The position numbers were made by a program, and so were the translations under genes. Under the pieces are notes generated by a model. The model worked only from the letters and a program-made list of their open reading frames with translations. It made no database searches and had not been told where the DNA came from. A stretch of DNA of 57,841 bases from a virus. Location: positions 1 to 57,841 of the IMG/VR virus record IMGVR_UViG_3300030329_003145; one strand, 5' to 3'. Positions 2,635 to 54,779 of this stretch are shown here, piece after piece (the stretch's first letter is position 1; each line of letters starts with the position of its first letter).

Positions 2635-2707
2635 ACTGTCCGAGCATGGTGTGCGGGGAGATCCCGTAACGGGTTTGTTCAACTTCCCATTGAAACACTC
2701 GGACAGT
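2635..2707 (+). ncRNA. candidate structured RNA, copy 1
   Basis: A 10-bp perfect terminal stem (2635-2644 with 2698-2707) closes a 53-nt interior. The interior opens with CATGGTGTGC, contains GGGAGA and a CCCG-TAA-CGGG hairpin, and ends in TGAAACA just before the 3' stem strand. GGGGAG can also pair with CUUCCC to give a nested helix. Copy 2, 11 nt downstream, keeps the interior signature while the terminal stem has a completely different but perfectly paired sequence. I do not recognise the class; it does not match hammerhead, twister, pistol, hatchet or HDV-like cores as I know them. Confidence 0.55.
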
Positions 2708-2718
2708 GCCACCCTTTT

Positions 2719-2793
2719 CGTCCTCCGCAGCATGGTGTGCAGGGAGACCCTGTGACAGGCTAGCTAGTGCCTTATGAAACACTGCGGAGGACG
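2719..2793 (+). ncRNA. candidate structured RNA, copy 2
   Basis: A 12-bp perfect terminal stem (2719-2730 with 2782-2793) closes a 51-nt interior aligned to copy 1: CATGGTGTGC identical, then GGGAGA, a CCTG-TGA-CAGG hairpin with a compensatory C-G to U-A change relative to copy 1, and TGAAACA at the 3' junction. The 3' part contains the ATG (2774) of a 39-codon frame, so folding could hide that start codon. Confidence 0.55.
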
Positions 2794-2893
2794 ACCTATT
2801 TGGCGCGTGATAATTGCTTTTGCCTGGGCATTCATCCTGACTTTTTTAGGCGGCGCGGCCTTTACTTCTTGGCTTGATACTCTCCTCCCATGA
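2774..2893 (+). CDS. small membrane protein (39 aa)
   Basis: Encodes a 39-residue protein with a short basic N terminus and a single hydrophobic segment (about residues 12-31: VIIAFAWAFILTFLGGAA), so it is probably an inner-membrane peptide. Its TGA overlaps the helicase start as ATGA (2890-2893), which supports translation. No clear Shine-Dalgarno sequence precedes it; instead the start lies in the 3' part of the second RNA element. Function unknown. Confidence 0.5.
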   Translation: MKHCGGRPIWRVIIAFAWAFILTFLGGAAFTSWLDTLLP

Positions 2894-4612: not shown

Positions 4613-4834
4613 ATGGACTACAAAGACTACAAAGAAGCCGGAAAGATCCTGGACCGCGTCCAGAAAAAGTTGATGGATATTAACAACGACCCGCTGCCAA
4701 GGACCGAAGTTCAACGGTGCAGGTCACTTAATTCGACCCGTAAAAATCTGGATAAGCTACGGGCGATACTCGACCGAGGGCTCTATGCAGACAATGAAGC
4801 CTGCTCGGAGCGTCCGAATACGGTTTTCTTTTAG
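4613..4834 (+). CDS. hypothetical helical protein (73 aa)
   Basis: ATG 4613 follows the previous stop by 7 bp; a TTG further upstream is less likely. The protein is basic and helical. It is the last plus-strand gene before the convergent giant gene, and its stop overlaps the giant gene's stop by 4 bp. No intrinsic terminator separates the two. Confidence 0.55.
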   Translation: MDYKDYKEAGKILDRVQKKLMDINNDPLPRTEVQRCRSLNSTRKNLDKLRAILDRGLYADNEACSERPNTVFF

Positions 4835-7800
4835 TCGGGAAGCGGGATAAATTGTTCGTCTTTCTCGGCCTCTGCCAGCAGGGCGTCGAGGCGTTTCTTC
4901 CCTCTCTCGGTCTGCATCAACCGCTCTGTCAATACGGGGTTTGGTAGGTATCTCTCTCCGTATCCTGCAAAGGCAAGCTGGACTCGGCGGTCCCCGTACT
5001 TCGCACTCCGCAGGGCGCGATACATATCGCCATCAGACATAAACTTACGGAACCCTGTCAGTGTCCGGTGCAGCCTCCCGTTGAGTCTTAGCAGACTGTC
5101 CCGCGTATCGATGTAGAGATCAGCGGCTTCTGACGGGAGCATGGCATCGTTCTGGAGCAGTTCGTTATAGCGTTGCCTGGCTCGGGTGTATTCATCCCGC
5201 ATCGCGTAAATTGATCTCTCGAACTGGCGGGCGGGATCAACGACCCTCGGGACAACAGGTAGACCCTCACTCAGAATCATACCGAGTGGCGAGTCCAGCC
5301 CCCCACCGTGGCCTCCCTCGATTGCGGCCTTGGAGGCTTCGATAACTTTAGCAGGAGTTCGAGGTCCGTAAGCCTCTTTCAAAACATACATAAGCCGCTT
5401 GCCGGTCTTCAGGGCAAACGGGTCTGTATCCTCGACAATAGGCTTATCCGTAGCCGCGTCCCGATTTTCTTTCACATCGAAAACTGCTCCCGCGAAGATC
5501 TGATCCCCGAGATAAGGATCAAAGATCGCCGTAGTAACCAGCTTCTCGAATCCTTCAATCGGTTCGCCCCTGAACAGATGCTCAGTGAAACGCATGGTCG
5601 GATCAACGAGAACCGAGAACGGGTTCATGTAAGTCAGATCTAAGCTCCGCAGCTTGCCCCCTGCTTTGAAGTAGAAGAACGTATGATTCTTCAGGTAAGA
5701 CGGGAGCGACTCTCGGAGAGCTTCGTCTTCTTCTTCCCCAATTCCACTAACGACCGTCCGCAAGAGGGTTGGGACAACCATACTGAATACACCAACAACG
5801 GATGTGAATCCGACCAAGCGTTTTACCCCCCGACGTTTTATCACTGAGTTTGAATCCGCCAGTTCCTTTCGGATCTGCTTCATAGTATTCGCGGAAATCC
5901 TCGGGATGTCCGCAGTGAACCGGATGAACGGAGCGAGGAGGAGGCCGATCCCCCCACTTGTTATCTTCTTGATGATCGGAGGTGCGCGGTCATACGACTG
6001 AGCGGTTGCAGTCACGATGTCCGCAGCCAGTTTGTCCCGCTGTGATGCGGACATATTCCTGTATTTGCCCTCTTCTGGATCGGTTTCAGCCGCTTCCTCG
6101 ATAATGGCGCGTTCGTTCTCGAAGTAGCCTATCTTATAGAACGAGTCCATTGCCGAGGCTACCCGAGCCGCCATGTTCTTTGCTTCCCGCGCCACACTTG
6201 CGGGGGTCTTCTTGTCGTTGATTACCTTGGACAATTCGTTGAGCTTTTCCTGCACACTGGTCATTGTCTCTTCTCCGCGCATCAGGCGGATCATAAGCTC
6301 TGACCGGATCTCATTGCCGAATACTCCGAGCCCTTGCAGGAAGGACAAATAGGAGTCCGTCTCAGCCTTTGTTCCACTGATAGCCCGTTTCAACATACCC
6401 TTGGCTCCGTATTCCCCGCCTTGGTAGCCAGGAATCAGGATAGCTGCACTCCCTTTCAGGAGTTTGAATGAGTTATACCCTTGCGCGGGGCCAAAGAAGA
6501 GGACGTTGGAGAGCATATTTCGCACATAGAACCCAATCGACAGGAGCGTCTTGGCCCCCATAGAGTAACCGGTGAGCTTGTGCGCGTGTTCCATGATCTT
6601 GTTAAGCCCCTGAGTCGCGGCATCATTGCCTGAACGGGTCTTCTGTTGGAACACGATCTTGAGATCTTCATAGATCTCTGGCGAAGTATACATCCCCGCC
6701 AATGGGTTGAGCCCATCGTCGGCTTTGTCCGCAGCGATCTTCTTGTATTCCAGTTTCGGGTCGAAGTTCTCTTCGTTCCTTTTTCTATTATACTCTTTAG
6801 CACTGAAAAGCCATCCGCCCTCGACTCCTTGAGCCTTAACCGCGTTAAGGAATGACTGATGCGCTGCAATTCGCGCCACTAACCCGAACGAATACAAGAG
6901 GTTGTCGATACTATCCTGCTTGAGGTTATTGGCTCCCATCAGGTTCGCCAATGGCTCCGGTATTTCTGACCGGCCTTGCAGGTTTTCAACTAGCGCACTC
7001 AACCCATTCTGACCTCGGCCAACGATTGATGCAGGAGCATCCGCGAGTTCAAACGCATTACCGAAATCACTGGCTCCGGTAGCCGTGTCGAATGACCGCA
7101 GGAACTCGATCATCATTACCTCACCGAGCGACTGAGTCCCGACCGCTTGCGCGTTGTATTGAGCTTCAGCTTCAACACGGGCGGCGTCAGTGGAGATAGG
7201 CTCCCCTTCAGCCTCTGCTTTTGCTTGGATAGACTTCGCAGTCGTGCCGATGTAGAAGTCGCGCATATACTCGATTGCCGCCATGCGGATATTAATCGCT
7301 TCTTGGGTATCCGCTTCGAGGATCATTCCCACGTAGCTCGGATCACTGAACATCTCGTATCGACGGGTGATGTAGATCCCCATGTTGGTATCGAACTTCA
7401 CACCGATATCAGCCGCGTGTTGCCCGAATGCTTGCTTGGCCGCGTCGGACAGGGAGTCCGTAAGCGCCCTTACGTTGAGGACAACCTTGTAGATCTCGTT
7501 GTGGTTATCCTTGAGGTATTGGAGGCTTTGGTTCCGCTCAGTCTTGATTACCTCAACCGCAGCCATTCGGGCGGCGGTCATGCGGCTCTCGAACTCGTTA
7601 TTTATACGTTCGATCTCCGCTTCTTGTGCAAGTCCGTTCTCTATTTTCTGTTCCTCAGTGGCTCCTCGGTTGGCATTACGAAAGTCAATGTCGGCCTGTA
7701 TTTTAGCCGCGACTTTCTGCTGATGAAGCGACTCTACAAGCTCGGGGTCTACCTGGACATTGTCCGTGGTCCCTGTAGCCTTCTGCACGTATCTCCAGAA

Positions 7801-10800
7801 CTCATCGTCCTCGGGCGGAATGTCCTCCCCGAATTCTTTTGTCAGCGCGGCTCTGTAGTCTGCGTGGAAGTTATCCAACACATCGCCACTGGACTTGATA
7901 AAGTTATCCCGTTGGCGCATGAGCCGTAGGATGACGGGGTCAGTGTCCCCGACAAACATACTCATAAACTTACCGGCCCGTTTGTATGGACCTGCCTCGA
8001 CGACGGGGATTTCCAGCAACCTGATGTAGCGGTCGAAGTCCATCAAGTCGGGGCGGAACTCAACCGGTAAGTCAGACGGCTCCCCGAAGGGGGCGAGTTC
8101 GGGACCGAGCCCTGAACCCAACCCTGTTTCGGCTGTTGAAGCCTCAACGAGCCCTTTAGATTCAGGAATATAGACGACCGCCATGTTACCAATATTGGCG
8201 ACAACTGAGTCGTGGCCTTCGGCCACTAAATCGTCAGCAAACTTGTTTTTAGCTGCTTCGGTAAGATAATCCCACGACCCCAAGCTATCCAGCCACTCAG
8301 ATTGGCTAATATACTTAGGGTTTCTAAGGCTAGTTTTCCAAGCCGCAGTCGCCCCATAAGTACCCGCATAAGACTGGCTGCTGATAAAGAAGTCATGTTT
8401 TCCACTAAGCGCGTTTGGGTCTCCCCGCCTAGAGCCGCGATACAAAACGATATTATTAACGTCGCTAGGAGGCTCAACCGCCCCGAGCCCTGAAAGAATC
8501 CTAGCCGGTCCCTGTTCAGCCTTGAGCCCCCGAAAACTGGGCCTATAAGGAGCAACTTCTTGTTCGCGTAGAACACGCGCCTTGTCTCTTATGCGCGTCA
8601 TCAACCGATCCCACCCCTCCTTTTGGTCTAACCGCCAATGGTGCATGGCGATGGTGTTCGGGTCAGACCCCAAATCTTCGAGCATTATCTTATCGGCTTT
8701 TGTCAGCCTCGCCCCCACCATTTTTGTGGCGGCTATCCAATAGTCTGCTCCCTTTTGAGTTTGTTCCTTACGGGGGGCTAAAGAAAGATCTTCGATCTGT
8801 CCCAAGGCATCCCGAGGAATCCGCGCTCCCATGAGGCCAATGGCTTGGCCCATCTCGTAATCAGAGATCCATCGTTGGGAACGTCCGGCCATGAAGTCCG
8901 ACACACCGCGCCCGTAATCCTGCTGCCTGAACAGGGACTCACCAATTGAAAGAACTTCAGTAAGGGCCGTGTTTTTGCCTGGCTCGAATCCAAGTATACG
9001 TTGGATAATTTCTACGAAACTGTCCCACGCAGACCGGTCTCCCCGCTCAACTTTTATGGTTGCCAGTTCCCTTTGGAACTGCGGGTCCATGAACGCTTGA
9101 GCAATAAATTCATCTAGGTTACCGAGAGCGTAATTAAAGCCTGCACGGGCGGTCGGGTCTGGATTACGCCTCGATACTTTACCCCCGATGGTTTTTGCGG
9201 CTCCCCCTTGGTCGATAACATGGAGATAAAGATCAATTAATTCCCTGACAGGTTGCGAAACCGCGTCACCGCTAATACCCGCTTTGCCTGTTTTGGCAAT
9301 TTTCCTTAGTGACTTTAAATACAGTTCCCCTTTGGGATTTCGTATGTGCCTATGAACTTCAAGCCATAACTTCTTAGTGGACAACGCATGAACAATCTCA
9401 TGGGCAATTGTGGAAAGACTTTCTCCGTCACTTAGGTGAATTGCATCACCACCATAACTGTAATACGCCCGCTCCAGGCGTGGGTTTACAATTACGTCTA
9501 CTGTATCAAATGCCTCGGGGAAGTCTTTTTTGAACTTGGTGATTAAGTCTATATACGCCTCGCTATTAGCCCCCCCGTAACTACCGGTAAGCTCCGAAGG
9601 TCTCGTTGCCAACGTCCCTCCTCCTAACTTTTTGTCCGCAATAGCGTCCACCAACTCCCCTATCGTCATGCTCCCATGCGTACCCCGCAGCCGGTTAGCA
9701 AAATCGGGGTCCATATCAGCGAGTTTCCTGATCCTGCCGCTGTCTTTTTCATCGTACCCCCGACGCTTATATGTCCAGCGGTCTAACGCTGTGGCCCCGC
9801 GTCCTCCCACTCCCATCATCCTTTTGTGAGCCGCTTGCGCTTCTAAGCCACGCTCGGCTAGTGCTCCCCGCCATGCTTTTTCGATGATGTCCACAAACCG
9901 TCGTTCGTCTTCGATAAGGCGACCATCATCAAAGCGCACCCCGTCGTTGGTCAGTCCTTCTATCATCCGGTCGAATTCCATCCCGTTTCCGTCCCAGAAG
10001 CCAGCCTGAAGAAAACTCTCGTATTCTTCAAACTGCTCAACCTTGCGAATGTTATCTCTCCGGTTTATTATGTCCTGTTCAAGTATATCGAGGTGATCTG
10101 ATATCCTAACCAAGATAGCTTGTCCCATCCTACTGGTGGATTCGGACGGGTCAGCCCATACCTCTTTGAAATTCTGGTAATCTTTCGGGTCACCACGGTC
10201 CCAGCCGGACAATTCAAGAAGCGCGAGCCCCTTTACTTTAGCCACAACCGTTTCTCCAACCGGCATGAGCCCTGAACCCAGAGCCCTTGGGGGTTGGATG
10301 TCAGCGTATTGGCGATTTCCCTTTTTAGATATCGGGTAAGGATTGGGTTCCCTGACCACATCTGAAAGCACGTAGCCATACTTCTTCCCCTTAGTGTCAA
10401 ACTTACTGCCTTCTTTGACGAGGTGCTTGTCTTCGTCAGCCCTGAAAGATTCGATGTCGGGGTAGACGATTGGTTCGTCTCCAATAGTCGCGTAGCCAAC
10501 GACTACAACAGGGCTTTTACCAGACCGGATAATCCCGACACGCTGCCCCAAGAATGACTTGAGTGTATTCCTTGACCGCGTCTCGATGGTTTTTTCACCG
10601 TTGAGGATCTGTTCTGTAAACGATTGGGTTCCGTCGTTTATGTAGATGCCCTTAGTTACGGGACCGAGCCCTGAACCCAGAGCCGCGCCTCCTGTAAGCG
10701 GGGGGTTGTCCAGGGTAACGTCTTCGTTCTTGGTGATGACGATGGTCGTGCGACCCTTTTTCTGAATTTTGGACCCTGTAGGGATCGTGACCGTGAACCC

Positions 10801-13800
10801 TTCGCCAAGGGTCTCTTCAGCGTATGTCTTTAGTTCTTCTTTATTGAACCCTTTCTGGTAAGTGAGTTCGCCGCTTTTCTTTCGGATAACTTCTAGTTCT
10901 CCGAATTTAAGGAACGGGGCCGCACCGCCTGCAACATCTTTCCCCCTAGTAACGACCACGGCCTCGCCTCCCACTTCAAGGTGGTTGGCAATATCCTTGA
11001 GGATAAACTCACGGGTCTGCGGCTCGACTACATTAAGAACAAAAGTATTCAGGATGTTAGGATACTGCTTGTCTATCGAGTCCCCTTGCCCAGCCGCACG
11101 GTCTCCAGTGTATGTCGGGGTGAAGGTGTCAGGAGGGAATGGTTCAAATGAATCTGCTCCGAGCGCCTTGGACGCCCCACCTGTGCCGTCGCCGTATACC
11201 AGTCCACGACCATCTTCGTAGTCTTTTTTGGAGATGATTCCACTGATCTTGAGATCTTCGTGGATTGTTGTGTTTGGGTTTTGCGTTTTCCCAGCCCTGA
11301 TATCGATAGCAAGGAACAGGTCGCGGTTCATCGTAACGCCCTTCTCGTCGATCAGTTTCTGAGCAGCCTTCTGGTTCAGTTCCACGGACTTCTGATCCGC
11401 GCCGACCTCGGTCGCTTTCTTAACGGCGTCAACGAAGGACGATTCAGCAGGCCCGAGCCCTGAAGCCAGGCCCGCGCTCTTGAGCGTCGCGCCCCCTCTG
11501 GGAGGTCTCCAAAGTTGAAGACCGTCCAAGGCTACCCCATCAACAAGATCCGAATGCATCTGTCGGATTAAGTGCATGAGTTGGGGGTCAGTAATCCCTT
11601 CCACCTTATGTTCCTCCCATGTTCCGTCAGCCTTGCGCCAACTTATCTCTTCTTCCAGTTCGTCTTCTATTATCTCTTTCCACGATTCAAACTTTTCTTC
11701 AATCCACGCCTCGGGGTCTTCGATCATCACATCGTCGCTTATACGAAACTCAGTGAACCCTAACGCCCTGAAATAATTAATCTTATCCATCCCCTTTACA
11801 GACAAAACATAATCTCGTTCCTGTGCGAGGGCTTCCTTCGCTGGGCCGTAAGGGTCTAGCTTGCCCCCGGAGTCAGGAAACTGGATAGTAAGAGTGACTC
11901 CCGAATCGTCAGCCCGCTTTATAATTTCCTCCATCAGGGCTTGCCCTACACCCTGCCCCCTCAAATGTCTGGGGACAAAGATATTCGATATAATGATCTC
12001 AGCACGATAAGGAGAGGCACCGCGCTGGTATTTACCATTTACGATTTGTCGATCGGCGGACCCCTCATCGGGTCTCGCGGCGACAAACCGAACTAGCCCA
12101 TCCGTGAGGTAATCCTCGCCGGTCGCCGGGTCAAAGGTGCCGGTACCCCCGAGCATCGCTGGATCAACAGTAGTAACCCCAACAGTATCGGCTAGGGTAA
12201 GGGGTTCAGACATTGTACCTAACTCCCGTATATTTCGGAGTCCGTTTTCAACAATTGTATCTATGTCAAGGTCTACCCCAGCAGCAAACCCTGTCTGGTA
12301 ATCCCTAGGAAAATTAGTGGGGTCGTATGGTATATCAGCAGGACCGAGCCCTGAAGCAGCCGCCCTTCTGGGCTCTTCGTAGGGCTCAAGCGACTTGTTC
12401 ATGCCGAGTTGCTTCCGAAGCTGTTCCAACGTGGCCGTTGGGTTGTTCGGGTCGAATGCCATCATATTGGAGTGGTAGACATACCCTGCCTCCATCCCTC
12501 GGATCTCTGCGACTATCCTAGTAATCGCGGCCTGAAGCTGTGGAGAGAACTGTTTGCGGGTCTTGTTGGACCCCATCCTATTCAAGAGTGACTTGAAATA
12601 ACGTGTGACCATCGGCCTTGCGCCAGGATTCTTGGCAAGGAAGAGCACGCTCTCCTCGGTCGTGAACCCACGGATTACCCGCTGGGCGTGTTGCCGCAGC
12701 ATCTCTTCAACGATCTGCAACTTTACTGCGCGGTTATTATCTCGGAACCCGCGCCTCATTTTTTCCCTAGTCTCCTCAATCTTTTTCCCGCCGCCATAAT
12801 CATTGATAGTCCGCATGGCGTCTTCCTCAGTAAGCTGGTCGATCAATACATTGATCTCAGCTTCGGAGATAACCGCGACCGATGCCGCGTGTGCGTGTTC
12901 TTCATTAAGAACAACCCCGATGATTTCCGCGACGGGGACTGGTTCACCGCCATTATACAGCACTATAGATTCGATGAAGTTAAACATCGCCTCGGGGTTA
13001 ACTCTCATTACCCCCGATTCAGAATCTACTTCGGCCATGCCGTCGAGGGTCTCATCAACGACCACCTCAACTTCTGGCGGGGATAGCCGCCGTGCAACCT
13101 CGGCGTATCGTTCTTTAACCGCCTCCCGTCGTCTCTGCTGGGCAACATCCAGGCCGGTTGCACCCTGCAACGCGGATGCTAATCTTGCACCGTTGTTGCG
13201 GGAATTTGATACTTCTTCGGCAACCTTAGACGCAAGATTATCCGCCGTGAGGCGTCTCTTGGGAGAGGTGTTAACTATTACCGGTGCCGCTGGAAACACG
13301 GCGTTAGCAATAAACGATTTTGCGCGGGCGGGAATAGTCTTCAAGGCACTGAGCCCCTCTTCCTGCAAAGCAGCAAATTCATCAAAGGTCATATCAACCT
13401 CTCGTCGGGTTGAGGGCCGACCCGCAAATACAGCGGCGTGAGACAGGTCCAATACCGCAGAAAATGCTTTTCTGAACTGTGGGTATTGAGTCCTCTGGAT
13501 GTTAAACAGACCGAGGATCGCGTCTACGATCCTTTGGAACATACTCCTCGGCGTTCCAATAGCCCGTGCGGGGTCGGACAGAACTTTGACGGCCTGCTGG
13601 AATTCCGTTGAAGTCAGGAAGTGCGCTATAAACTCGTCTGTATTTTCGAGCGCCTCGTAGACACGCGGGTCGTGATTATCGAAGGCCGTGCTAACATATA
13701 TTCCGCCCGTGAAGCTAAGAGCATCGCTGGACTGGTATGCAAACTGATCTTTTACGCGGGCTATCAGCCCCTCCAGTGTCCTCAACGCTGACCGCTCTTG

Positions 13801-16800
13801 GCGCGTCAACTCAGCTTCTGGCTTACGGGTAATCCCCGACACATACGCATGGGTCAGTTCGTGGAGTAGCGTGTCTGCGACTCCGCGTGGGTTATACCCG
13901 TTGATATTGATCGAGATTGCGCGGGTGCCATCATCTTGAATGCGGAGTCTACCAGCATACTCTAGCCCCGTCTCATCAATCGTGAACGCAATGTCATTTA
14001 TGAAACTGGGGTTCTGGATAAGGAGTCGGGCGAGCGCAACAAGGTGGGCGTCGTAATCAGTTTCGGCGCGGTCAGACACACCAATGATTCTGCGAAGCGC
14101 CTCAAGAATAGAGTCAGGGTTTCCGGTTTCGAGGCCCAAGGCAGCAATCGCTGCAAGGTTCTCTGCTTGTACTTCCGCCCTCGTCATGCTCGTCGGCTGA
14201 GACCGGAGGTAAAGGTCGCCTGCTGCTTTTTGCACGGAAGATATGAACTCGTCTGTTTGCCCAGAGTCTGGCTCTTGACCGAGCAATTCGCGCAAACGGT
14301 CGTTTATTACCCCACGGTATACAGGGTCTGTCTTAGGGTCTCCCTCGATGGCCTGCGAAGACAGGGACATTATCTGAAGTGCCTGGCGAACCGCCGTCCC
14401 CATTTCGTATTTACCACTCTTCAAATCACGCTGGAAAGTCAGACTGGCAGAGTTGGCGCGGTTATTGCCCTGTGCCATCCACTGGACAAACAACCCCCAC
14501 GCTTCCTTGTTGGTCATCTTCGAGAAGTTGATCGAAGACGACGCATATACTTGTGACTGGATAATCTCCAAAACGTCTCTCCGCAGTGCAGGGTCTGCGG
14601 CCATCGCCGCGACGGCGTCCGACTGCATCTCCTTGATCATGTTGGAAATCTTCCTGACCGGAAGTTGTGGTAGAGCTTCCTGCGGGTAAGGCGTATACGG
14701 ATCAGAGATTTCCTCGGCGGCGGCGAAGTCGGGGTTGTTCTGCAAGTTCGACGCTTCGTCCAATGCAATAGTCGCCACATACGTCTCCTTCTGATGCTTG
14801 AGCCGCGTAGCCTGAATCTCCATATACTTCCCTGTTACTTCGCGCCCCACAGCAACGAGTGATACAGGCTCGCCCTTCATAAGGGACTCTTGTGCTCTGA
14901 GTTTCAGTTCGATCAGGGCCGTATCCCGCAGTGCGGGGGTGAGGTCACCACTGTCGAGGGTCGGGAGGAACGGGTTCAGTTCTTCGTCGGTGGATACCCG
15001 CGACATTGCTTCGTCATAAGTAATCTTCTCGTCGGGGTTGAACGGAGAAGTGATAAGCAGTTCCACCAATCCTTCTGGTGCATCCGGCTCCCCTTCTCTT
15101 GCTTCCCGAAGATCTGTAACCCTACGGATCAATGCGGACAAACCGGTGTGGTCTTCTCGCAGGTTGAGTGCGTGTTCGGCGGATGTGAGCGCGGATACAA
15201 GGCCACCGGATTCAGGGACCACGATGTCGGACACGACAAACTTGTTGCCAATCCTGGCGAACCGGAATGCAGGGTTCAGGGTGGGGGAGGTTAAAGCCTC
15301 CACCGGAACTTCAACCGGAGCCCCCTGCTCTATTAGTCCGAGCATACTAGCGGGGTCGTTATTAAACCGCCCCACGCCATTTGCGTCGATGACCGCCCTG
15401 ACCGGACCATACGAAGGCACTGAAGCTCCACCACTGGGGGTCTCTTGCGGGATGACGGGAAAACGGGCTGCAATCTGGTCGGCAATACGCTGGGTGCTCT
15501 CTTCGAGGAACTGGTCAGACAATGTCCGCACACTCACGGGTACCCCGAGTCTCCTCAACTTGGCGGCGGTAAGAATATGCGGGTAGCCACTTTCGATAAG
15601 CCGCTCGATGGCCGTTTCTTCGGCGGGTGCAACGGGCTCTTCTTCGACTTCGATTTCCTGTTTGACCCTGAATTCTTTTAAGGCCGTGATCCGGTCACGA
15701 AATGCCTGGCGTGTAAGAGCTTTAGCAGCCTCGGGGCTTACGGCGCGGCCTTCCTGCACGGCTTTATCCAATGCCTGTTGGACTGCGGGGACGGTCCCCG
15801 TGGCTGATTGCGCCTCTATGTCTCGGGACAGTTTCTGGTAGAACTCTCGTTTCTGGTTTATCTCCTTAACCTGCTCCCTGAACCGTGCTTCGACTGCCTT
15901 CGCCTCTTCGGTTCGTTCGGGGTCAATGATAATGCGGACCTTGGGGTCAGCCAGCGGCTCCAGCTTGGCTTCGACGGATTCTCCTTTCTGACCAGTAGCG
16001 AGTTCACGAACGGCTTGGTGGTCTGAATTTTCGACAGAACTGGATTCAATCGGGTTCAGCCCAAGCCCACTCATCAACGCGCCCTTGATTCTTACGGTCG
16101 CTGGGTCCGCGCCGGATACCACGGGGGTTTCTTCCGCGAGAACTTGGCTCATGGCCGACTTAATGGAAGTCGGGTTGACTGTGTCTTCGGGGAAAAGATC
16201 CAGTTGAGCTGACTCAGGAGGATTAGCTGGGCGAGAGGCGCGGAACATAGGGGGGATCGTGAGGGTTCCTGGCGCTGCTTCTTTTGCTAGGCGCTTGATC
16301 TCGGCTTTAACTTTTTGTCCGTGGACCCTGACTGCTGAGAGGGGCATCCCCGTAGTGTTGGCTACGAAACTTAAATAGTCTTGGTCACGGGTTGAACGAG
16401 TCCTCTGGGCCGTGATGTAAGCGGCTCTATCAATGTCGCTCTCAAAAAAGAGTTCAAACCTCTTTTGACCATAAGAATACCTTGGTTTAGCTCCTGCCAA
16501 ATCCCGTGGAAGTTTTGGCTCTCGCCATGTTACCGTGTCAGCATCCCACACAAATCCAGCGGGGGGTTCTGCAACCGGCTCCTCCGTAGGTTCTGCAACC
16601 GGCTCCTCCGTAGGTTCTGCAACCGGCTCCTCCGTAGGTTCTGCAACAGGTTCAGCCGCAGGTTCTGCAACAGGTTCAGCCGCAGGTTCAGCCGCAGGTT
16701 CAGCGGCAGGTTCAGCCGCAGGTTCAGCGGCAGGTTCTGCAACAGGTTCTGCAACAGGTTCAGCCCCCAACGCCTCTCTGAAATCAATAGCCGCTTTCTG

Positions 16801-46885: not shown

Positions 46886-47162
46886 CTACAGTAATATTAG
46901 GTTGTTTCTCTGAAGGGATCTTCGTCAGTTTATGCAAATCATTGATAGCATCACGGTAGCCTGCATACCAAGCATGGCGCATCCCATTGCTTTCAGTATT
47001 CTGCAAAGTATTAAACGACGGTCCAGCTAATTCTTTAAGCGTAGCCGCCGCCTTCTGAAAAGCCCCCGATTCCAATATCTCCTTCAACTCCTCAACAGAA
47101 GCACGGTCTTGATACCACCGGTCCAGAGGAACAGGGGGAGTAATAGGTTTTTGTTTAGGCAT
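46863..47162 (-). CDS. hypothetical protein (99 aa)
   Basis: Helical protein with WYQDRASVEELKEILESG and AWYAGYRDAINDLHKL segments. It overlaps the methyltransferase stop (TAATG) and the scaffold start. Small phage proteins with such helices sit beside portal and scaffold genes as head-assembly accessories. Function unknown. Confidence 0.55.
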   Translation of the reverse strand: MPKQKPITPPVPLDRWYQDRASVEELKEILESGAFQKAAATLKELAGPSFNTLQNTESNGMRHAWYAGYRDAINDLHKLTKIPSEKQPNITVDEWTHIE

Positions 47163-48040
47163 TATTTATGTAGTTCTCGGAATAATTGGGTGAAGGCTTC
47201 GGCAACCATCGATGGGACACATCCGTTACCTAAGAGTCGGAGCCGGTCGGTTCGATTAGCCAAGGCGCACATAGCTGAGTCCACCCCACCCACGGTAGCC
47301 CCATCAACTGCTCCACCCAAGACGGATTCAGTTTCGCTGACGACTCTAGGCTCTTCCCACTCGCGCTGTGGTTCTCCAGGCAAACTTGGCCAACATACTT
47401 GTGGACTTCCCGACCCAAGAGACAGTTCGACGGGACATTCCGGCAACTGTCCGCTGTCCCGTCCTTCCAGTCGCGACTCGTTGGCGTGGGCCAGGATAAA
47501 GACGCGCTTTCTCTGGTGGGGTGCGCCGACTTCGCTCGCTGTAAACAGCCCGAACGCACAAGTATAATCTTCTCGTTCCAACTCTCTAAGGACATGGAGC
47601 AATACCGGCGTTCCCGCTGGGTCTGCCCAGTTGTCGGATTTGAGGAAACTTGTGATGATCCCCTCGACGTTTTCGAGGAAAACGTACCTTGGCCGAATAA
47701 CTCTAATTGCATTTTTTATGTAGGGGAACAAGTTTCGGGGGTCGTCGTCGGCCTCGCGACCCCCGGCAACAGAGAATGGGGTGCAGGGAAACCCTCCACT
47801 GATAATCTCAAGGTTGATCGGAAATGATCCCAATGGCAGGGTCTTAATGTCCGTCCACAAAGGTGCCGCATCCAAACCTCCCGCTTCCATCTGGCCAACC
47901 AAAGTCGCGACGGCGAAGGCTTCGATCTCCACATAAGCGACTGTTCGGCAATTCGGGAGAACTCTTCGGAGTCCGAGGTCAATTCCTCCGTATCCTGAAC
48001 AGAGCGATAAGTGTCTAATAACTGGCGGGGTAGAATCCAC
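47162..48040 (-). CDS. DNA (cytosine-5-)-methyltransferase
   Basis: Transfers a methyl group from S-adenosylmethionine to C5 of cytosine in DNA. Motif I is LSLCSGYGGIDLG (residues 11-23), the catalytic loop is GGFPCTPFSVAG (Cys86), motif VI is ENVEG (123-127), motif VIII is QRKRVFI, and motif X is RLRLLGNGCVPSM. At 292 aa the target-recognition region is short. Start is GTG 48040. Its role is probably protection of phage DNA from host restriction, consistent with the ArdC-like antirestriction gene elsewhere in the window. No cognate restriction enzyme is adjacent. Confidence 0.93.
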   Translation of the reverse strand: MDSTPPVIRHLSLCSGYGGIDLGLRRVLPNCRTVAYVEIEAFAVATLVGQMEAGGLDAAPLWTDIKTLPLGSFPINLEIISGGFPCTPFSVAGGREADDDPRNLFPYIKNAIRVIRPRYVFLENVEGIITSFLKSDNWADPAGTPVLLHVLRELEREDYTCAFGLFTASEVGAPHQRKRVFILAHANESRLEGRDSGQLPECPVELSLGSGSPQVCWPSLPGEPQREWEEPRVVSETESVLGGAVDGATVGGVDSAMCALANRTDRLRLLGNGCVPSMVAEAFTQLFRELHK

Positions 48041-54527: not shown

Positions 54528-54779
54528 ATGAACTACAACGGAATCTTTGGATACTATAACCCCACCACAAGGACAGGGGAGATATATGACGGGCGAAAAG
54601 CAAAGCGGGACAGGCAAGCGGGATTGCCCTGTTTAGTCCTTCCCGCCCCCCTTGTCACTTTGTCAGGGGTGACACAAGCGGAATTTGAAACCCGCTTGCA
54701 ATCGGAAATCAGTCTGGCGGGAGTAGAACAGGAAGCGGAATTTGAAACCCGCCTGAAAGAGGAAAGGGGGGATGCATGA
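54528..54779 (+). CDS. hypothetical protein with internal duplication (83 aa)
   Basis: The C-terminal half holds two copies of AEFETRL (AEFETRLQSE and AEFETRLKEE), 18 residues apart, so the gene grew by duplication. The N-terminal half is Gly/Tyr-rich (NYNGIFGYYNPTTRTGEIYDG). Its TGA overlaps the following start as ATGA. Function unknown. Confidence 0.6.
   Translation: MNYNGIFGYYNPTTRTGEIYDGRKAKRDRQAGLPCLVLPAPLVTLSGVTQAEFETRLQSEISLAGVEQEAEFETRLKEERGDA

Follow-up and report, generated by a model that had tools for sequence, protein, structure and literature searches.

Two similar short sequences stand side by side ahead of a helicase gene in the IMG/VR record IMGVR_UViG_3300030329_003145 (positions 1 to 57,841; this whole stretch of 57,841 nucleotides, nt, is referred to below as the window), and the locus raises two questions, namely whether the pair is kept by selection as RNA structure and what such an RNA would do for a phage. 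A first-pass annotation, made from the sequence alone, had placed tandem structured RNA elements here and could assign them to no known class. Both elements were located at this site, and comparison with their relatives showed that they are members of a class of small structured phage RNAs that is new and missing from Rfam; that an RNA family with a conserved fold exists is near certain. The selection on RNA structure that the annotation had read from the two copies is strongly supported, with hundreds of relatives in which three helices covary.

Fold and Covariation of the RNA Family

The module is ∼75 nt in size and folds as a three-way junction, P1-C-AUGGUG-(P2, 6 base pairs, bp)-GAGAN-AC-(P3 hairpin)-nnUGAAACA-P1′, with the consensus P1 - C AUGGUG - Y.P2 - GAGAN - P2′.R - AC - P3 - (CAU)GAAACA - P1′. 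Scans of viral contigs with sequence patterns returned >300 further loci, nearly all of them on viral contigs; this and the other overall counts for the family are lower bounds. The first pattern, CATGGTGTGCNGGGAGA, by itself matched at least 120 viral stretches; it left GAAACA unselected, and the downstream GAAAC, which is not in the pattern, was carried by 116 of the 120 listed loci, with nearly all flanks pairing mutually. A second pattern, in which only GGGAGA, part of P2′, RAC, and GAAACA were fixed, gave many more loci, and the AUGGUG that it left unselected was largely retained. When P2 was left free in a third pattern, complementary P2 arms were present in 99 of 102 distinct new loci. 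Some core positions were set by the patterns themselves, and AUGGUG, GAGA, and GAAACA thus owe part of their strict invariance to the way in which the loci were selected.

Pairing was assessed from plain tallies of pairs, which are not R-scape statistics. All 12 P1 pairs and all five P3 pairs vary on both sides in alignment A1, which was made with MAFFT and not fitted to any model, and the same holds for 23 of 23 pairs in alignment A5, which was fitted to an earlier family model; 89.6% of the cells in A5 are paired, compared with 35–48% in a slid control with shifted 3′ partners. Among 129 dissimilar members (<75% identity), the set used for all strand and context counts, P1 comprises 1189 Watson-Crick, 149 G-U, 15 A-C, and 72 other pairs, and the preponderance of G-U over A-C therefore indicates that the gene-sense strand is the one that folds. 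Between P1 and the core, the majority of members carry a single C on the 5′ side, whereas 34 of the 129 have GN 5′ and AA 3′. A pattern with P2 arms one base longer, which doubles as a specificity control, matched only 13 stretches, namely a single real lineage, which has a mismatch in P2, and a few chance matches; the spacing between the GAGAN loop and the junction is therefore almost fixed. No P2 loops with a non-A second base were found in the pattern search.

The Two Elements of the Window

The helices and junctions of both elements are listed in Table 1. The family model R3 sets them well apart from the rest of the window, the next-best site scoring 12.8 bits vs. 72.8 and 68.8 for the elements. 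When folding alone was compared with 200 shuffled sequences for each element, the support was strong for element 2 (z −4.15), whose fold was equaled by 0 of 200, and weak for element 1 (z −1.94), whose fold was equaled by 7 of 200.

Several details of the first-pass description were borne out and others had to be redrawn. The block that it had noted as common to both elements is a direct repeat of 31 nt (2643–2673 and 2729–2759, 84% identical). Its closing stems of 10 and 12 bp, unrelated in sequence and perfectly paired, are indeed perfect and unrelated, and that of element 1 is 10 bp; the stem of element 2, however, is a 13-bp terminal inverted repeat, and the element ends at 2794, one base past the 2793 given. 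The inner YCCG/CGGR hairpin (CCCGTAACGGG with CCTGTGACAGG) is not a conserved pairing; the comparative data place its bases in P2, where GCGGG or GCAGG pairs with CCCGU or CCUGU around the GAGAN loop, and in P3, where the next GGG or AGG pairs with a downstream CCC or CCU. The compensatory changes that had been read in this hairpin are real, but they belong to P2 and P3. The pattern scans recovered homologs with covarying stems in hundreds of viral contigs, and the relatives identified the elements as neither a coding nor a mobile repeat: a few members lie within coding sequence, yet their frames differ and the RNA pairing is retained.

Table 1. Coordinates of the two RNA elements and the adjacent genes in the window.
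Feature	Position	Strand	Evidence
Element 1, whole module, P1 to P1′	2635–2707	+	cmsearch R3, 68.8 bits, E 1.4e-17
Element 1 P1 5′ strand ACTGTCCGAG, pairs with 2698–2707, 10 bp	2635–2644	+	Sequence, fold; P1 covaries in family
Element 1 J1/2 CATGGTG, near-invariant	2645–2651	+	Alignment, base counts
Element 1 P2 hairpin, 2652–2657 with 2663–2668, loop GAGAT 2658–2662	2652–2668	+	P2 covariation; length almost fixed
Element 1 J2/3 AC	2669–2670	+	Alignment conservation
Element 1 P3, GGG 2671–2673 with CCC 2686–2688, variable loop	2671–2688	+	P3 covariation
Element 1 J3/1 ATTGAAACA	2689–2697	+	Unselected GAAAC in 116/120 listed loci
Element 1 P1 3′ strand CTCGGACAGT	2698–2707	+	Sequence
Element 2, whole module	2718–2794	+	cmsearch R3, 72.8 bits, E 9.5e-19
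Element 2 P1 5′ strand TCGTCCTCCGCAG, pairs with 2782–2794, 13 bp	2718–2730	+	Inverted-repeat search; fold
Element 2 J1/2 CATGGTG	2731–2737	+	Alignment, base counts
Element 2 P2 hairpin, 2738–2743 with 2749–2754, loop GAGAC 2744–2748	2738–2754	+	P2 covariation, cmsearch
Element 2 J2/3 AC	2755–2756	+	Alignment conservation
Element 2 P3, AGGC 2757–2760 with GCCT 2769–2772	2757–2772	+	P3 covariation, cmsearch
Element 2 J3/1 TATGAAACA	2773–2781	+	Alignment, base counts
Element 2 P1 3′ strand CTGCGGAGGACGA	2782–2794	+	Inverted-repeat search
Upstream gene, 94 amino acids (aa), stop 45 nt 5′ of element 1 P1	2305–2589	+	List of open reading frames (ORFs)
Downstream SF2-type helicase gene, 433 aa	2890–4191	+	ORF list; tblastn matches annotated phage DNA helicases

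A short ORF of 39 aa with one likely membrane helix (2774–2893, +) has its start at the ATG within TATGAAACA, in element 2, and shares an ATGA overlap with the start of the helicase gene; it does not seem to be kept in the relatives L008 and L011.

Novelty and Distribution

The view that the elements match no known RNA class was upheld. Rfam 15 (4227 models) gave no match at the gathering threshold across the whole window and, when E values up to 10 were admitted, just four chance matches to the element pair, all below threshold; in 20 other member loci, only tRNAs beside the elements reached the gathering score. Models of the hepatitis delta virus (HDV)-like and theta ribozymes had no match at the gathering score in the window or the 20 loci, nor at E up to 10 in the pair, and ARAGORN found 0 tRNAs in the window. 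No matching motif was encountered in the openly readable papers searched, so an earlier description elsewhere is possible; the literal core occurred in paper texts only within unrelated sequences, the match in one phage paper being a host 16S sequence.

A search of genome contigs gave four loci, and members are present in the named strains Terriglobus albidus DSM 26559, Acidobacteriaceae bacterium KBS 83, and Nocardia suismassiliense S-137; the Terriglobus and KBS 83 loci have phage neighbors and look like prophages. A bacterial housekeeping RNA was considered and rejected, as only 1, 2, and 0 further genomes beyond the seed genomes were recovered in ∼290–300-genome samples of three phyla. Among isolate phages, megablast for close relatives returned none, and no copy was present in the searched stretches of an Akkermansia phage whose portal is related or of an actinophage whose helicase is related. 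A divergent copy was found in Microcystis phage Mwe-Yong1318-1 (L222, 3984–4060, +; R3 E 5e-6 in a 152-kb search set), and it possibly represents a subfamily; its J1/2 is ACTAGA, its 3′ part is TTGAACACG, and it lies ahead of the terminase genes in an intergenic region of 440 nt.

Genomic Context and Its Bearing on Alternative Explanations

Copies of the element, placed against simple ORF calls, lie on the sense strand within phage operons, typically just after a stop codon: a same-strand stop is found ≤35 nt upstream in 66 of the 129 dissimilar members, compared with 16 on the antisense side and 9.6% of random sites. A single copy is present in 39 of 40 records. A structure of single-stranded DNA rather than RNA (a replication origin or a recombination or packaging signal) would be in keeping with the usual single copy per genome and with the replication or packaging genes that are often nearby; it is nevertheless highly improbable, since a DNA signal would not be expected to follow the direction of the genes, and the strong sense orientation and tight post-stop placement suit transcripts better. 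On a 4.2-kb contig, L009, an element (905–983, +) is flanked by long minus-strand ORFs of 294 and 600 aa, to both of which it is antisense, and this copy may be a free-standing RNA gene.

The neighboring genes share no function and include helicases, SSB, RusA, endolysins, terminase, portal, and many unknowns, and the distance to the next start runs from <10 to >250 nt. An SF2 helicase is a recurrent follower in several phage groups, relatives of the window included. No general terminator or ribosome-site pattern was seen near family members; a terminator formed by a U-run after P1′ was rejected as a general feature, with TTTT in just 18 of the 129 members. The recurrent helicase would fit a riboswitch or a gene-specific leader of the next gene, as would the closing P1, the conserved junction, and the occasional tandem arrangement, which are riboswitch-like in architecture. 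Such a role, judged from sequence features, is very doubtful, however, given downstream genes that are unrelated and sometimes tRNAs or convergent, elements that lie inside coding sequence, the range of next-start distances, and the scarcity of TTTT runs.

A few members lie inside open frames of essential phage genes. The element is contained in the coding sequence of the terminase large subunit in L248 and L271 and of the portal in L158, L161, and L317, with the frame open throughout in each case and with a reading frame across the element that differs between the terminase and portal families. The L248 and L271 terminases are poorly conserved around the element and alike in the flanks; the fold persists in terminase and portal genes where the protein is poorly kept and is therefore strongly maintained. 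Conservation of a peptide was rejected as an explanation: PDGVQGEPATG..HETK-like peptides are common to some in-coding members, but the frame is a different one in the terminase members, the window copies contain stops, and the RNA pairs covary inside the coding members. In L271, the terminase large subunit gene (6506–9298, +) has the RNA element at aa 335–354, and its product also has an intein-like insertion that is missing in the relative L248.

In separate lineages, genes for tRNA-Arg, -Gln, -Asn, -Lys, -Tyr, and -His start 14–25 nt after GAAACA, and one copy is found between tRNA-Arg and tRNA-Asn; tRNA-adjacent copies are a small minority of the members. This nearness to tRNA 5′ ends, together with the small, strongly conserved three-way junction core, could point to a self-cleaving ribozyme of a new class that would separate mRNAs and tRNAs in a polycistronic transcript, recalling the theta ribozymes of phages, which have an HDV-like fold, occur in tRNA arrays, and cleave within 5 nt of the tRNA end (PMC10879173). 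Like theta ribozymes, the elements are small structured phage RNAs, mostly intergenic and in sense orientation and sometimes beside tRNA genes; unlike them, they form a simple three-way junction with no HDV-like match, the tRNAs are ≥14 nt away, and most copies are not near a tRNA. The hammerhead ribozyme is also a three-way junction with one open and two closed stems and a GAAA-containing junction, built on a CUGAUGA core; the present RNA shares the junction, the stem arrangement, and the GAAA, but it lacks the CUGAUGA core, differs in junction lengths, and occurs in open reading frames. Self-cleavage is rendered rather improbable by those members inside coding sequence, since cleavage would destroy the terminase and portal messages; in addition, no circularly permuted forms were found in the pattern searches, and no Rfam ribozyme family matched.

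Gene runs inspected at 20 copies placed most of them deep in co-directional operons, usually with more same-strand genes upstream than downstream, and in the KBS 83 prophage the gene after the element is convergent. Both observations bear on a cis element that would alter RNA polymerase during elongation, by antitermination or anti-Rho activity, and thereby allow transcription of long untranslated or intergenic stretches and of tRNA arrays, after the manner of the put RNA of HK022, a phage antiterminator of ∼70 nt with two stem-loops in series near early promoters (PMC9378689). The element is likewise of about 70 nt, phage encoded, and presumably carried in transcripts, an action on polymerase is plausible, and the sense placement in operons, right after stop codons or before tRNA arrays, the single copy per genome, and the immaterial identity of the following gene would all suit such a role. 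It is still considered unlikely, because the copies lie deep in gene runs rather than near operon starts, the KBS 83 neighbor is convergent, and put RNA consists of two adjacent stem-loops without an enclosing stem, whereas here a covarying P1 encloses P2 and P3.

Besides the window, L121, L124, L215, L294, and further distant phages have two copies in close tandem. Tandem copies are also a trait of viral exonuclease-resistant RNAs (xrRNAs), which combine a three-way junction and an invariant core with positions near stop codons and typically have a loop-to-downstream pseudoknot. An xrRNA-like, end-protecting role, in which a tandem-prone three-way junction would halt a host exonuclease and stabilize the RNA on one side, is suggested by the same junction, invariant core, and free helices, by placement after stop codons and in close pairs, and by tolerance within coding sequence. 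Little credence is given to it, however: pairing between the P3 loop and the flanks showed no clear excess over shuffled partners (z 1.4 downstream, 2.0 upstream), and the module is enclosed in its entirety by P1. This RNA also differs from xrRNAs in occurring in DNA phages of bacteria.

Other Features of the Window

A single 4966-aa ORF (4831–19731, −) encodes a giant phage protein with a tandem AEP-type repeat at 16517–16777. Two 33-nt direct repeats (AAGCGGAATTTGAAACC...; 54676–54765, +), 57 nt apart and 88% alike, are unrelated to the RNA element, and an ORF at 47162–48040 (−) resembles a DNA cytosine methyltransferase, as judged by eye.

Proposed Function and Implications

Sequence comparison leads us to favor, tentatively, a new class of phage RNA module that would bind a conserved protein, whether after being processed into a small RNA or while still part of the transcript. 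The element would be transcribed within long polycistronic phage messages, and its three helices, which are free in sequence, would present a near-invariant core (AUGGUG, GAGAN at a fixed distance on P2, AC, and UGAAACA), making the RNA a compact module to which a conserved protein or complex binds; the action of the module would be generic rather than gene-specific. Two forms can be envisaged: a stable small RNA might be cut from the transcript and act in trans, or the element might act on its own transcript by modifying RNA polymerase or blocking a ribonuclease. The processed trans-acting RNA is rated slightly above the transcript-level element, and the data do not separate them. With the core and the loop position constrained, the rest free, and no single gene linked to the element, neither a riboswitch specific to one gene nor a ribozyme for which self-cleavage is obligatory is likely. 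Some points weigh against the protein-binding module: in the copies embedded in terminase or portal genes, excision would cut an essential message; a GNRA-like loop that is strict and held at a fixed distance would suit a ligand-binding or catalytic RNA as well; and the bias of G-U over A-C would be the same if that strand formed the structure as single-stranded DNA.

The conserved core, which occurs across hundreds of viral contigs as well as in prophages of cultured bacteria but not in Rfam, points to a function common to phages of many hosts. It is possible, and proposed with reserve, that the element is a universal phage RNA tool across hosts of several phyla, with a core that would bind and manipulate a conserved host machine (polymerase, ribonuclease, or ribosome) or would block an RNA-sensing defense. 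The members in named strains and the copy in the Microcystis phage make the family open to experiment now.
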